Below are positions 51,395-63,772 of a stretch of DNA of 64,000 nucleotides, piece after piece. Position 1 is the stretch's first letter, and the number at the start of each line of letters is the position of its first letter. Location of the stretch: NCBI RefSeq assembly GCF_030209445.1, contig NZ_JARVSD010000014.1, positions 62,001-126,000 on the forward strand, in the 5' to 3' direction. The notes under the pieces are model-generated. The model made no database searches, was not told the DNA's origin, and worked only from the letters and a program-made list of their open reading frames with translations. The position numbers were made by a program, and so were the translations under genes. Source of the stretch: Promicromonospora sp. MEB111 (GTDB taxonomy: Bacteria > Actinomycetota > Actinomycetes > Actinomycetales > Cellulomonadaceae).

Positions 51395-51414
51395 ACGCGC
51401 GCATGAGCGCGCGT
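51395..51414. repeat. Small hairpin abutting palindrome A1
   Basis: ACGCGCGC - ATGA - GCGCGCGT: perfect 8-bp stem overlapping the first 3 nt of the 46-bp palindrome. Confidence 0.6.
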
Positions 51415-51457
51415 GTCAGACGTACAGGTCACCCGGGTGACCTGTACGTCTGACACG
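51412..51457. repeat. Family A palindrome, copy 1 (46 bp, perfect, no loop)
   Basis: All 23 pairs match around the centre 51434/51435 (CCC|GGG). Outer arm CGTGTCAGAC, then a 4-nt variable block GTAC, then half-core AGGTCACCC. Same arms and core as 63725-63772; the 4-nt block differs there. Located between the CAP lipoprotein and acyltransferase genes, both on the plus strand. Confidence 0.9.
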
Positions 51458-53599: not shown

Positions 53600-55063
53600 A
53601 TGGCTCACGACCAGGCCCAGGCGCGGGGCGCCGTCGACCGGTTCTTCAAGATCAGCGAACGCGGGTCGACGGTGTGGACGGAGGTGCGCGGCGGCCTCGT
53701 CACCTTCTTCACGATGAGCTACATCGTGGTGCTGAACCCCCTGATCCTGGGCAGCGTGCCTGACGGCACCGGGCAGTACCTCGGTGGCGGCACCACGGTG
53801 GGCGACCTCCCGGCGATCGCTGCGGCGACCGCCCTGGTGGCCGGCATCATGTCGATCCTCATGGGCGTGGTCGCGAACTTCCCCCTGGCGCTCGCGGCGG
53901 GGCTCGGGCTCAACGCCGTCGTCGCCTTCTCCGTGGCGGCGCTGCCCGGCATGACCTGGGCCGACGCCATGGGCATCGTGGTGCTGGAGGGCCTGGTCAT
54001 CCTGATCCTGGTGGTCACCGGCTTCCGGGAGGCCGTGTTCAAGGCCGTGCCCCGCGTGCTCAAGATCGCGATCAGCGTGGGCATCGGCCTGTTCATCACG
54101 TTCATCGGCGTGTACGACGCCGGCTTCGTGCGCATCCCGGCCTCCCTGTCGACGCCCACGGAGCTCGGCATGAGCGGCTCGCTCGGTGCCTGGCCGCTGT
54201 TCGTGTTCGCGTTCGGCGTGCTGCTGGCCGCCGTCCTGATGGTGCGCAAGGTGCGCGGCGGCATCCTCATCGCGATCGTCGCGTCGACGGTGCTCGCGGT
54301 GGTCATCGAGGCCGTCGGGCAGATCGGCAAGCGCACCGACGACAACCCGGGCGGCTGGTCGCTCAACGTGCCCGCGCTGCCCGACTCCGTGGTGGCGCTG
54401 CCGGACTTCTCGCTGATCGGCCAGTTCTCGCTCTTCGGCTCGTTCGAGAAGATCGGCGCGATCGCGGTCATCCTGCTGGTGTTCACGCTCCTCATCGCGG
54501 ACTTCTTCGACACGATGGGCACCATGGTCGCCATCGGCGGCGAGGCCGGGCTGCTCGACGAGAAGGGCAACCCGCCGCGGACCACCCAGATCCTGATCGT
54601 CGACTCGATCGCCGCGTCGGCGGGCGGCATGGGCTCGGTGTCGTCCAACACGGCGTACGTCGAGTCGGCGTCCGGCGTGGGCGACGGCGCCCGGACCGGC
54701 CTCGCCGCGATCACGACCGGCGTGGCCTTCCTGCTGACCACGTTCCTGTCGCCTCTCGTCAAGGTGGTGCCGCACGAGGCCGCCACCCCCGCGCTCGTGA
54801 TCGTCGGCTTCCTCATGGTGGTCCAGGTGACCGGCATCGACTGGAAGAACCTCGAGGTCGCCATCCCCGCGTTCCTCACCATGGTGCTGATGCCGTTCGC
54901 CTACTCGATCACGGTGGGCATCGGGGCGGGCGTGATCTCATTCGTGCTGCTCAAGATCGCCGTCGGCAAGGCGCGCAAGGTCCACCCACTGCTGTGGGTC
55001 GCGGCCGCGCTGTTCCTCGTCTACTTCTTGATGGGCCCGATCCGCACGGCGGTAGGTATCTGA
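53600..55063 (+). CDS. NCS2-family purine permease (AzgA/PbuG-like)
   Basis: 487 residues, about 13-14 membrane segments. Family marks: EVRGGLVTFFTMSYIVVLNP, FPLALAAGLGLNAVVAF, DFFDTMGTMVAIGGEAGLL and SSNTAYVESASGVGDGARTGL, which match the hypoxanthine/guanine/adenine group rather than uracil/xanthine permeases. SD is weak and distant. It follows the acyltransferase by 20 bp; co-transcription is possible but functionally unrelated. Confidence 0.9.
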   Translation: MAHDQAQARGAVDRFFKISERGSTVWTEVRGGLVTFFTMSYIVVLNPLILGSVPDGTGQYLGGGTTVGDLPAIAAATALVAGIMSILMGVVANFPLALAAGLGLNAVVAFSVAALPGMTWADAMGIVVLEGLVILILVVTGFREAVFKAVPRVLKIAISVGIGLFITFIGVYDAGFVRIPASLSTPTELGMSGSLGAWPLFVFAFGVLLAAVLMVRKVRGGILIAIVASTVLAVVIEAVGQIGKRTDDNPGGWSLNVPALPDSVVALPDFSLIGQFSLFGSFEKIGAIAVILLVFTLLIADFFDTMGTMVAIGGEAGLLDEKGNPPRTTQILIVDSIAASAGGMGSVSSNTAYVESASGVGDGARTGLAAITTGVAFLLTTFLSPLVKVVPHEAATPALVIVGFLMVVQVTGIDWKNLEVAIPAFLTMVLMPFAYSITVGIGAGVISFVLLKIAVGKARKVHPLLWVAAALFLVYFLMGPIRTAVGI

Positions 55064-55105
55064 CGCTGGTCGCCTGGCCGGCGCGCGGGGCCCACCCCAA
55101 ACACG

Positions 55106-55182
55106 AAGGTGCGCTTCTACCCAGTCATTGGGCCCGGAAACGGGCTGTTTCCGGGCCCAATGACTGGGTAGAAGCGCACCTT
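55106..55182. repeat. Family B palindrome, copy 1 (36-bp perfect arms, 5-nt loop)
   Basis: Left arm 55106-55141, loop GGGCT, right arm 55147-55182, every position paired. Core block CTTCTACCCAGTCAT then TGGGCCCGG. It begins 42 nt after the permease stop and ends exactly at the stop codon of the DUF559 gene (55183), so it lies between convergent genes. Confidence 0.92.
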
Positions 55183-56211
55183 TCAGCTTGGCGCCGGGAT
55201 CGGGGCTGGGGTTGGCAGATTCACCGGGGTGCCCGCGGCTGCGTACCGGCCCGGTTGCCAGCGGTGTCGGGCGAGTACCTTCGCGACCTGCGCGCCGATA
55301 CCACCCGGTCGATCGTTCTCAACGGGCCGGAAGCGCAGCATGATCATCTGTCCGGCGGCCAGGAGCTGGTTCTGGCGCGGGGCGTCCCGGACCAGGGCCT
55401 GCTCGGTGCTGTGCGGCCCGACGCCGTCGATCTCGACGACCAGCCAGCGCCCGTCGGGGAGCCGCCAGACGAAGTCGACGCGCGCGACGACCTTGCCGCC
55501 CGTCATGATGCGCACCTGGAGGTCGTCCGGGGGCACCCCGTTGTCGTGGAACGACAGTCGCGCCGCCGATTCGGCAACGGACTCCGAGCGTGGGTCGACC
55601 AGCCCGAAGAGCTCGTGGAGCTGGGCACTCCCGTGCCGGCGTCGGACCAGGTCATGCAGCTCAGCGAGACGGGTCGGGGTGAACCCGTGCCGGCGAGCGA
55701 GGTCGTCGAGCACGGCAAGGGCATTCTGGCGGGGGAGTCTCCGGAGCGCCTGCGCCGCGGCATGGTCGATCCGGGCGACCGACCGGTCGCCGATCCGCAC
55801 AGTCGGGAACGTCGCGTAGTCCACGACGGCGACGCCGTGCCGCGTGCGCCGGGGCGACCGGTCCTCGCGCGCGACCTCCAGCGGAGAGTCGCGCGGCAGC
55901 CCGGAGACGCCGTGCAGCACGAGCGCGCAGCAGCCGGTGGCGACGGCGTCCGGCCCGTGCACGAGCAGCGCGAACCAGGTCCGCCATCGTGCGGAGTGGT
56001 CGAACCAGTCGTTCCTGACCCTGCTGCCGAGCGGCACCGGATCGCTGTCGTACACACCGCGCGCGGGGCTGGTCCAGCGGACCTGCCCGACCAGACGGCG
56101 CCGGACCTCTCGGCTGATGCCGAGTTCCTCGCACTGGACCGTGGACAGGAGGCCGGCCTGCCGGCGCAGGAGCGTCTCGGCGGCTCGCGGGATCACGAAG
56201 GTCTTCGGCAT
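55183..56211 (-). CDS. AbiEi-like HTH + DUF559 (PD-(D/E)XK-like) protein
   Basis: 342 residues. The N-terminal ~60 residues resemble the AbiEi antitoxin winged helix (LLRRQAGLLSTVQCEELGIS, GVYDSDP). The C-terminal DUF559 domain keeps a nuclease-like pattern: Glu214 in SVAESAARLSF, Asp246 in ARVDFVW, Glu260/Asp262 in LVVEIDG, and QMIMLRFRP. No toxin partner is adjacent. ATG 56211 has no clear SD. Family B palindromes lie on both sides: one touching its stop codon, the other about 260 bp upstream of its start. The role is unknown. Confidence 0.82.
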   Translation of the reverse strand: MPKTFVIPRAAETLLRRQAGLLSTVQCEELGISREVRRRLVGQVRWTSPARGVYDSDPVPLGSRVRNDWFDHSARWRTWFALLVHGPDAVATGCCALVLHGVSGLPRDSPLEVAREDRSPRRTRHGVAVVDYATFPTVRIGDRSVARIDHAAAQALRRLPRQNALAVLDDLARRHGFTPTRLAELHDLVRRRHGSAQLHELFGLVDPRSESVAESAARLSFHDNGVPPDDLQVRIMTGGKVVARVDFVWRLPDGRWLVVEIDGVGPHSTEQALVRDAPRQNQLLAAGQMIMLRFRPVENDRPGGIGAQVAKVLARHRWQPGRYAAAGTPVNLPTPAPIPAPS

Positions 56212-56257
56212 GGACCCACTTCACCAGCGCGGGCCCCTGCGGCCGGGGTCACCCGGC

Positions 56258-56310
56258 CCACCTGTGCACAACTGCTGAAAAGAGCCCCCTGTGGTCGCGC
56301 TCGGCCGCTG
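56258..56310. repeat. Bipartite dispersed element, copy 2
   Basis: CCACCTGTGCAC (56258-56269), 21-nt spacer, GTGGTCGCGCTCG (56291-56303), followed by CCGCTG as in the copy at 15050. Lies just upstream of the DUF559 gene. Confidence 0.5.
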
Positions 56311-56332
56311 TGACCCCCGTCCCCCAGGTCCC

Positions 56333-56403
56333 CGCCGACCCGCCGATGTCTCCGCCGACTCGCCGACGCGGTCCGCGGTCTCGCCCCCCGCCGACCCGCC
56401 GAG
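56333..56403. repeat. Imperfect CCGCCGACYCGCCGA tandem/dispersed repeat
   Basis: Three copies of about 15 nt in a C-rich, non-coding stretch upstream of the DUF559 gene. The rest of 56212-56467 shows no gene apart from the bipartite element. Confidence 0.4.
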
Positions 56404-56467
56404 CCAGCGGTCCCGCTGAGCCCGCCAACCCCGCCGCTGTCCCGATCGTCGCCGGCCCCGCCCAATG

Positions 56468-56544
56468 AAAATGCGCTTCTACCCAGTCATTGGGCCCGGA
56501 ATCAGCGTGATTACGGGCCCGATGACTGGGTAGAAGCGCACTTT
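56468..56544. repeat. Family B palindrome, copy 2 (37-nt arms, 3-nt loop)
   Basis: Left arm 56468-56504, loop GCG, right arm 56508-56544, with three unpaired or wobble positions. It shares the CTTCTACCCAGTCAT block and GGGCCCG with copy 1; the inner ends and loop differ. It lies just past the end of the MFS gene (56586, minus strand) and upstream of DUF559. Confidence 0.9.
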
Positions 56545-56585
56545 GTCGCGCCGCATCCGCAGAGTGGCGGCGGCGCCGGGGAGAG

Positions 56586-57893
56586 CTAGGCCGCCAGGGC
56601 CTGCCGCTCCGGGGCCGGGTCCGCCAGGGGCGGGTAGTCCACCTGGAGGTACGGGCGCGGGATGCGGTGCTCGCGGGAGAGCCGCGCGCGGACGCGCACG
56701 TGCCACGTCCGGTACGCCCAGACGGTCGCGACCGCCGCGACCAGCAGGGTCGCCACGGCCCCGATGAGCACCGCGTACCGCGGGCCGAACGTCTCGCCGA
56801 TCCAGCCGACGACGGGCGAGCCCAGCGGCGTGGTGCCGAGCAGCACCATCATGTAGATCGACATGACGCGACCCCGCATCTCGGGTGCCACCGAGAGCTG
56901 GATCGCCGCGTTGGCCGACGTCAGCATGGTGAGTGACGCGAAGCCGACGGGGATGCACATGATCAGGTAACCGAGGTAGGTCGGCATGACGGCCTGGATC
57001 CCCATGGCGATCGCGAAGGCGAACGCCGCGCCGAGCACGAGCCGCACGCGCGGCCGCTCCCGCCGGGCCGCCAGGAGCGCGCCCGCGAGCGAGCCGATGG
57101 CCAGCACGGACCCGAGGATCCCGTACTCGCCGGCGCCCCGCCCGAACTCGACGCGCGCCATCATGGCCGACGTGAGCTGGAAGTTCAGTCCGAACGTGGA
57201 GACCACGCCCATCACGACCATGATCACCACGATGTCGCTGCGCCCGCGGATGTAGGCGAGCCCTTCGCGGATCTGCCCCTTGGCGCGCGAGGCGGTGGGC
57301 TGGACCCGCAGGTCACGCATCCGGGTCAGGGCCAGGATCACGGCACCGAACGCGATGCCGTTGATGACGAACACCCATCCCGTGCCGACGGCGGCGATGA
57401 GCAGGCCCGCCACACCGGGACCGATGAGGCGCGCGGCGTTGAAGTTCGTCGAGTTGAGCCCGACGGCGTTCGCGAGCCGCTTGGTCGGCACGAGCTCGGC
57501 GACGAAGGTCTGCCGCACGGGTCCGTCGATGGCGCTCACCACACCCAGCAGGGCGGCGAACACGTACACGTGCCACAGCTCGGCCGCGCCGGACAGCACC
57601 AGCGCACCGAGCCCGAGGCCCAGTACGCCCATGCCGCCCTGCGTGAGCATCAGGAGCTTGCGGCGGTCGACGCGGTCGGCCAGCAGGCCGGCCCACGCGG
57701 ACAGGAAGATGTGCGGGATGAACTGCAGCGCGGTGACGATGCCCACGGCGACGCCGGAGTTGTTGGTCAGGACGGTCAGGACGACCCAGTCCTGCGCCAC
57801 GCGCTGCATCCAGGTGCCGATGTTGGCGACGAGAGCGCTGGCGAACCAGAGACGATAGTTACGGTATTTAAGGCTGGCGAAGGTTGCGCTCAT
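56586..57893 (-). CDS. MFS transporter (EntS-like group)
   Basis: 435 residues, 12 membrane segments. Motifs: YRLWFASALVANIGTWMQRVAQDWVVL, GLLADRVDRRKLLM (motif A), DGPVRQTFVAELVP and GRVMSIYMMVLLGTTPLG. The group includes siderophore and drug exporters; the substrate is not set. The ATG overlaps the MarR stop by 4 bp, so the MarR regulator and transporter form one operon controlled by the operator at 58355. Confidence 0.88.
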   Translation of the reverse strand: MSATFASLKYRNYRLWFASALVANIGTWMQRVAQDWVVLTVLTNNSGVAVGIVTALQFIPHIFLSAWAGLLADRVDRRKLLMLTQGGMGVLGLGLGALVLSGAAELWHVYVFAALLGVVSAIDGPVRQTFVAELVPTKRLANAVGLNSTNFNAARLIGPGVAGLLIAAVGTGWVFVINGIAFGAVILALTRMRDLRVQPTASRAKGQIREGLAYIRGRSDIVVIMVVMGVVSTFGLNFQLTSAMMARVEFGRGAGEYGILGSVLAIGSLAGALLAARRERPRVRLVLGAAFAFAIAMGIQAVMPTYLGYLIMCIPVGFASLTMLTSANAAIQLSVAPEMRGRVMSIYMMVLLGTTPLGSPVVGWIGETFGPRYAVLIGAVATLLVAAVATVWAYRTWHVRVRARLSREHRIPRPYLQVDYPPLADPAPERQALAA

Positions 57894-63724: not shown

Positions 63725-63772
63725 ACGTGTCAGACCCTCAGGTCACCCGGGTGACCTGAGGGTCTGACACGT
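63725..63772. repeat. Family A palindrome, copy 2 (48 bp, perfect, no loop)
   Basis: Perfect around 63748/63749 (CCC|GGG). Outer arm CGTGTCAGAC and half-core AGGTCACCC are identical to copy 1. The intervening 4-nt block is CCTC on one side and GAGG on the other, where copy 1 has GTAC on both. It lies between the plus USP gene and the minus aminotransferase gene, which converge. Confidence 0.92.

Follow-up and report, generated by a model that had tools for sequence, protein, structure and literature searches.

The locus raises the question why a nuclease-like gene is framed by two copies of a long palindrome. The first-pass annotation had offered two answers: a palindrome-processing or palindrome-mobilised cassette by analogy with REP elements and RAYT proteins, or a gene that happens to lie between two bidirectional terminators. 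The stretch of DNA analysed (the window; 64,000 nt, G000:C29:62001-126000) is part of a 6.23-Mb Promicromonospora genome (G000) and was compared with 12 other genomes of the genus (G001-G012). An inverted-repeat scan confirmed the framing of the gene by two real long palindromes (see Table 1). The arm length of 36-37 nt given in the annotation applies to the upstream copy (arms 56468-56504/56508-56544, 37 nt, 92% complementary, loop of 3 nt); the downstream copy is longer than stated (arms 55097-55141/55147-55191, 45 nt, 91% complementary, loop of 5 nt). The two 77-nt units are identical at 67 of 77 positions. As annotated, one palindrome stands directly against the stop codon (TGA on the minus strand, 55183-55185), and the other, placed about 260 bp upstream of the start codon, ends 256 nt ahead of it; the latter begins 41 nt beyond the end of the MFS gene, and the downstream copy is located between two convergent genes. 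The 15-mer CTTCTACCCAGTCAT has four matches in the window at up to 3 mismatches, all four of them exact, with 0.34 expected from shuffled sequences.

Table 1. Features of the palindrome-framed gene and its surroundings (positions in the window).
Feature	Position	Strand	Basis
Xan_ur_permease gene, convergent neighbour, conserved flank of the site	53600..55063	+	profile, orthologous loci
3' palindrome, family B unit, 77 nt	55106..55182		inverted-repeat scan; abuts stop codon; full hairpin 55097-55191
AbiEi-like + MTES_1575/DUF559-type nuclease gene	55183..56211	-	ORF, 342 aa; profiles, invariant residues, purifying selection
Nuclease region, about residues 205-300 (Glu214, Asp246, Glu260-x-Asp262, His267)	55312..55599	-	invariant residues and MTES_1575
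AbiEi-like region, about residues 14-193	55633..56172	-	PADLOC AbiEi models and Pfam AbiEi_4
Leader, 5' palindrome to start codon	56212..56467		sequence
5' palindrome, family B unit, 77 nt	56468..56544		inverted-repeat scan
MFS transporter gene, conserved flank of the site	56586..57893	-	profile, orthologous loci

Genes of the AbiEi+DUF559 group are usually annotated as AbiEi-like antitoxins or DUF559 proteins. The corresponding domain calls are clear across the family and weak by profile for the window member itself, which scored 16.6 bits against AbiEi_4 (cut-off 25) and 16 bits against MTES_1575 (cut-off 38.2). At E<=0.1, the AbiEi models of the PADLOC defence library matched 31/31 genus members, Pfam AbiEi_4 27/31, MTES_1575 21/31 (best 2.1e-6) and DUF559 1/31. 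The PD-(D/E)XK-like residues that had been pointed out (Glu214, Asp246, Glu260 and Asp262) are present and, together with His267, Asp276, Arg279, Gln280 and Asn281, invariant in all 31 aligned genus members; judged from the family, the conserved E...D...ExD acidic residues would be catalytic. In the orthologue comparison, the nuclease gene is under purifying selection (dN/dS 0.20-0.34) and changes faster than its neighbours (MFS gene 0.06-0.15, permease gene 0.17-0.21). The invariant acidic residues and these dN/dS values suggest that the nuclease has been kept active. The synonymous distance to the orthologues is raised as well, by up to about fourfold (0.28-0.96 for the nuclease gene, 55186-56211, versus 0.19-0.40 for the neighbours); transfer between lineages or a weaker codon bias would fit this value, which is possibly a sign of between-species exchange at the same site. 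A search of solved structures with the protein sequence yielded weak matches to acetyltransferases alone and no convincing relative, and the NCBIfam search gave nothing relevant. Neither phage nor plasmid records contained a match to the protein, and viral contigs contained no relative, results of little weight either way; a DNA search of phages was without a match as well. With these searches empty, carriage by a phage, plasmid or virus was rejected.

Nine further genomes of the genus have an orthologue of the window gene (66-87% identical to the window protein in the alignment), flanked in every case by the same MFS and permease genes. The lack of a toxin partner noted for the window is a general feature of the site, as no AbiEii partner adjoins the gene at any of the ten orthologous loci. 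Not one of these loci lacks palindromes: they are found on both sides of the gene in nine loci (the upstream palindrome of G009 being imperfect and detected in one scan only); in G006, a single side has both. The palindrome pair changes together with the protein between species; the G003 orthologue carries a palindrome of different sequence that is the same on both sides (36/37 and 33/37 positions paired). The family-B gene of G006 is inverted in place, and 36-38 codons that match the C-terminus of a second, lost copy remain between the upstream palindrome and the permease gene, ending at another palindrome. The comparison of strains for an empty site, proposed in the first-pass annotation, did reveal such sites: G004 and G005 lack the gene and both palindromes, the last sense codons of the neighbouring genes ending 3 (G004) and 48 (G005) positions apart, and sites with a lone palindrome occur elsewhere. 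In the gene-less G001, the neighbouring genes end 131 positions apart and enclose one degenerate palindrome that resembles those of G003.

The paralogues in the genus, which are 37-46% identical to the window protein, are mostly framed by different palindromes of their own: GAGGYCTAAGTTTCT... in clade C, TTCAGCAGGC...GCCTGCTGAA in another clade, GAACGTAGG... in a further one, and more. The association was examined by a flank test, in which 400 nt upstream of a gene were compared in both orientations with the region from -20 to +200 downstream of it. The 31 genus genes tested were those with fetched loci among the 48 matches that 13 genomes gave at E<=1e-40, with the broken or overlong loci L070, L072 and L093 left out. 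A match was detected in both orientations for 21/31 genes, in one for 5/31 and in none for 5/31 (any match, 26/31); for control genes taken from these genus loci, the respective numbers were 0/279 for both and 11/279 for one orientation. Of the five failures, L071 and L091 are weak, L069 has a called frame running through the 3' palindrome, and in L084 and L085 a clear palindrome exists on the 5' side alone. Early scans for core motifs and hairpins had left many paralogues seemingly without palindrome; the flank-versus-flank comparison found longer imperfect ones in most of them.

The match is specific to the individual gene. The mean score between a gene's own 5' and 3' flanks was 41.3, compared with 14.9 for mismatched genes, a value not reached in any of 10,000 permutations, and flank similarity followed protein similarity (Mantel r 0.68; 0/5,000 permutations as high). 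Shared flanks of syntenic orthologues raise the Mantel value, but they cannot explain the matching of the 5' and 3' copies. In the matrix behind these figures, made up of 30 genus genes (the rearranged L074 left out) and 12 loci preselected for a flank match, the own partner scored highest among the 42 in 22 rows and in 24 columns and was mostly beaten by a close relative in the rest; cross-scores rose clearly over background only from a protein similarity of about 0.65. Gene-specific, matching palindrome pairs are present at the orthologues and at most of the paralogues. The first-pass annotation had held that palindromes at many convergent gene ends, with no enrichment near DUF559 genes, would speak against a link between the two. 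The copies are indeed mostly situated at gene 3' ends (see below); the enrichment part does not apply as worded, because the paralogues own separate palindrome families and family B is to be expected beside the family-B gene only.

Outside Promicromonospora, 23 of 24 loci were testable; nine matched in both orientations (from Antribacter, Cellulomonas, Isoptericola, Xylanimicrobium and Propionicimonas), one in a single orientation and 13 in none, the latter including many of the most distant loci, among them those of Nocardiopsis, Occultella, Gulosibacter and three proteobacterial loci. An order-wide search at E<=1e-30 with five candidates scored per genome retrieved relatives in at least 53 of 396 genomes and at least 21 of 110 genera. 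For 29 loci from other genera of the order, the flank test was positive in both orientations in 15 cases, in one orientation in seven and negative in seven (any match, 22/29), the control genes being those of the genus loci only; some of the flank matches in this set are long and G+C-rich.

The family B palindromes are dispersed over the genome. A scan with the family B arm at up to 2 mismatches gave 51 matches versus 2 for the reversed-pattern control; 24 complete elements, including the two of the window, were assembled from the fetched regions, so that the family comprises at least 24 copies, and a covariance model recorded at least 56 hits over both strands (about 28 places) among the 150 candidates scored per genome. 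The distance between the outer edges of the 15-mers is 61-62 nt in 23 of the 24 elements and 51 nt in one (L047), and the motif ACCCAG...CTGGGT is nearly invariant. At 14 of 25 stem pairs, both sides were changed in some sequence (30 sequences compared). According to a codon-usage gene caller, 22 of the 24 copies, the window's two included, fall in gaps between called genes (13 tandem, nine convergent, none divergent) and two inside a called gene; with other settings, one copy (L035) was divergent and one inside a gene. For comparison, the gaps of the window itself are tandem in 27, divergent in seven and convergent in six cases. With the latter settings, a stop codon is found within about 130 nt of 19 of the 24 copies. 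The conservation of lone copies was followed in the relatives G010 and G006 with 15 of 20 prepared probes, one of which lacked an orthologous place: at 12 of the 14 sites found, at least one relative shares the palindrome. Movement is thus slow, and the lone family B copies appear to be mostly old. The search against known RNA families gave sub-threshold matches throughout, 10 of 11 to microRNA models.

Five sites with a single copy in G000 have extra local copies in G006 (L185, L187, L196, L203, L205), about 150-290 bp apart and similar to REP clusters, and G000 contains two family B doublets (L031, L049). A derivation of the lone doublets from cassettes by internal deletion was rejected, as those spacers that were inspected by eye contained no gene remnant except at the family-B locus of G006. 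The window also harbours a second palindrome family (CGTGTCAGAC...GGTCACCC / GGGTGACC...GTCTGACACG; positions 51412-51457 and 63725-63772; further copies L071:3367-3412 and L098:3407-3456), which within the window occupies gaps behind genes; no member was seen framing a DUF559-type gene.

Dispersed copies were counted for two families, B and C, in this one genus. The clade C palindrome (GAGGYCTAAGTTTCT arm) is present on both sides of the gene in six of eight loci and, in drifted form, on the 5' side only in two. Family C attains up to about 75 copies per genome (reversed pattern, 0) and was found in six of the eight gene-bearing genomes, the other two having drifted versions beside the gene, and in two of the five gene-less ones (G006 and G001); G006 contains 69 forward and 69 reverse matches to the family C arm and no clade-C gene at E<=1e-60. 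Family B model hits on both strands ranged from 15 to 106 in the ten gene-bearing and from 2 to 22 in the three gene-less genomes (150 candidates scored per genome), copies persisting without the gene in G004, G001 and G005. In consequence, palindrome abundance would not strictly need the enzyme.

The paralogous sites revealed further states of the cassette. The clade C gene resides at site C1 in G000, G007, G009, G010 and G011, and at site C2, 2-12 kb from C1 on the same contig, in G002, G004 and G012. Relative to the conserved outer flanks, the C1 cassette is inverted in G009 and G010; in G009 and G007, one flank only was matched. Among the ten genomes without a gene at C2, three have a lone clade-C palindrome (G006, G009 and G011, the last in G011's own drifted version), four a different long palindrome and three no long one. 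The different palindrome (GGGTGGGTAACGGAGAGG...) was seen in four species (L213:578-640 after reversal, G000:C30:414200-415300; L214; L218; L219, drifted). In the eight genomes lacking a gene at C1, no clade-C palindrome was detected in the fetched stretch (2.6 kb in G002, G004 and G012); the C1 flank probes are about 2.3 kb apart in L249 (G003:C2:341320-344060) and L250 (G005:C3:266820-269610) and about 0.4 kb apart in G001, G006 and G008.

Site E1 contains the gene in G002, G003, G005, G006 and G010 and, in pieces, in G000; of the seven gene-less genomes, G008 retains a lone E palindrome and six have none. The clade-E gene of the window's genome is read in two frames (G000:C31:336597-337524; L070, L072) and is probably the broken copy at E1. 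Among the genomes resolved at site E2, G008 has the gene, G005 and G003 have a lone E palindrome (in G003 with the far flank about 8 kb off), and G000 and G010 are without a palindrome. The lone E2 palindrome of G005 and the palindrome pair of G008 align in their outer flanks. According to the states at E1, E2 and C2, a single site can be empty, hold one palindrome, or hold palindrome, gene and palindrome. Read from these alignments, cassette and lone palindrome appear to trade places between E1 and E2. Alternatively, E1/E2 and C1/C2 could represent two ancestral cassettes each, with differential loss, since some nodes are weak in the species tree, which was built from four genes neighbouring the window site. 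No clear target-site duplication emerged.

On balance, we consider it likely that the window contains a member of a family of palindrome-gene-palindrome cassettes whose nuclease recognises and nicks or cuts the palindrome of its own lineage, with recombination moving the gene. The dispersal of the palindromes, their matching pairs, their association with the gene and the presence or absence of the cassette at given sites are observed, and from them we infer recognition and cutting. In the proposed course of events, the AbiEi-type part, joined to a PD-(D/E)XK-type (MTES_1575/DUF559) nuclease, would be expected to bind DNA, and the imperfect palindrome of about 60-80 nt at both ends would be the recognition element that differs per protein lineage. 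The protein would recognise this palindrome, probably extruded as hairpin or cruciform, and nick or cut it; repair between palindromes could then copy the gene into sites already holding a palindrome, and might as well flip the gene or delete it to leave a lone palindrome. Lone palindromes would persist by gene 3' ends, serving as terminators or mRNA hairpins. Cutting of the palindrome and recombination between palindromes would account for inversion, for deletion to a lone palindrome and for gain at a lone palindrome alike. Of the REP/RAYT-like reading in the first-pass annotation, the mobilised cassette has gained support from the site comparison, the gene-specific pairs and the dispersal; "palindrome-processing" is the conjectural part of it.

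The simpler reading, which takes the palindromes for ordinary bidirectional terminators that lie at the ends of genes and flank this one by chance, agrees well with the location of the copies: tandem and convergent gaps prevail and at most one of the 24 copies is divergent, most lie close to a stop codon, the window copies are situated past the end of the MFS gene and between convergent genes, and 12 of the 14 lone copies checked are conserved in a relative, at the corresponding gene end. The lone palindromes, mostly at gene 3' ends and mostly shared with relatives, may indeed double as terminators. However, terminators need no shared sequence, and a lineage-specific match across the gene, present in 21/31 genes versus 0/279 controls, is not expected of them; the gene-less G004 and G005 lack both palindromes, their neighbouring genes ending within a few dozen positions of each other, and no T-run terminator was predicted over 54900-56800. 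Plain terminators explain the positions of the lone copies and leave the gene-specific pairs unexplained; as a full explanation they are rejected by the flank, control and matrix tests, and we regard it as very improbable that chance flanking is the whole story.

A passive role of the protein deserves somewhat more credit and is still unlikely: the palindromes would recombine by homologous recombination or hairpin-induced breakage, and the protein would act elsewhere, for example in defence or regulation. Inversion and the alternation of lone palindrome and complete cassette are the expected products of repeat recombination, and the palindromes outlive the gene in several genomes; yet a separate palindrome family per protein lineage, the genome-wide dispersal of these families and the absence of such framing at control genes would all remain unexplained. 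The agreement of all 31 members with the PADLOC AbiEi models, as well as the position of the 5' palindrome upstream of the start codon, where an operator could lie, would be compatible with a defence or toxin-antitoxin-like locus, i.e. an AbiEi-type repressor-nuclease fusion with the palindromes as operators, decoys or self-markers. We attach little probability to this proposal, against which stand the transporter genes that adjoin the locus in place of an AbiEii partner, and the occurrence of the palindrome also behind the stop codon and at the ends of unrelated genes. Under the preferred explanation of a nuclease acting on its own palindromes, the cassettes of these soil actinobacteria look like genetic elements that move slowly and centre on an enzyme without a known role of this kind.

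Several known systems share part of this anatomy. Free-standing homing endonuclease genes (PD-(D/E)XK, Vsr-like) are small nuclease genes present or absent at an intergenic site, and the lone palindromes and complete cassettes at E1, E2 and C2 resemble their empty and filled target sites; here, however, the presumed recognition element exists in many copies and is kept at both gene ends. Integron gene cassettes are likewise units bounded by folded palindromic sites, the attC hairpins of varying sequence, but the present cassette carries its own nuclease. With the AbiE toxin-antitoxin system, the protein shares the resemblance of much of its N-terminal part to the AbiEi antitoxin; it differs in the fused nuclease domain, the transporter neighbours and the palindromes at both ends, and the adjacency of AbiEi and AbiEii is not encountered. 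In the open-access literature of PubMed Central (subscription journals and preprints lying mostly outside it), no report was found that ties DUF559/AbiEi-type genes to palindromes.

The closest likeness is to REP elements and RAYT genes (REPtrons). As far as the consulted parts of PMC2817692 go, RAYT genes lie between two inverted REPs, occur together with REPs and evolve fast, and according to the consulted parts of PMC3733652, REPs sit mostly past gene ends. Correspondingly, the gene studied here has a copy of its own palindrome at either end, and lone copies are dispersed outside coding regions, mostly past gene ends; paired stem changes, doublets and local clusters, and a gene evolving faster than its neighbours are further traits in common with the systems as portrayed in these sources. 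The enzyme, in contrast, joins an AbiEi-like part to a PD-(D/E)XK-type nuclease and is not a Y1/HUH transposase, and the palindromes measure about 60-80 nt versus the 20-40 nt given for REPs in the parts consulted, with tens of copies per genome. By inspection, families B, C and E have no GTAG/CGTC end tag (GTAG occurs in family B inside the arm only). The identification of the gene as a RAYT was rejected: the Y1 (HUH) transposase domain PF01797 is lacking from the window's genome (present in 5/14 control genomes), and the protein matches AbiEi and MTES_1575. With a different enzyme, a missing tag and longer palindromes, membership in the REP/RAYT system fails and the working analogy holds. 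In the parts of PMC3733652 consulted, TIRtrons are described as RAYT-like genes in which different genes are framed by different long terminal inverted repeats, some of them repeated families. They resemble the present cassettes in having distinct genes with distinct long flanking repeats and differ, on the same description, in their HUH transposases; here the repeats are themselves palindromic and the enzyme is unrelated.

Bacterial genomes commonly contain dispersed palindromes. The HUH-type RAYT is the only dedicated enzyme for them found described in the open-access literature consulted, and for the CGTC REPs, a large repeat group, a dedicated transposase is apparently lacking according to the authors (PMC3733652, parts consulted). 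If the explanation favoured here is true, genomes without RAYTs would possess a dedicated enzyme for dispersed palindromes, a possible role would emerge for genes annotated as AbiEi-like antitoxin or DUF559, and the many protein-palindrome pairs would provide a natural set for reading a code of folded-DNA recognition. An unrelated nuclease fold with REP/RAYT anatomy would, moreover, show that this life style arose twice. We lean slightly towards the view that the cassettes are such an independently evolved counterpart of REP/RAYT, in which an AbiEi-steered PD-(D/E)XK-type nuclease would recognise its own dispersed palindrome by a lineage-specific "code" and spread into such palindromes.
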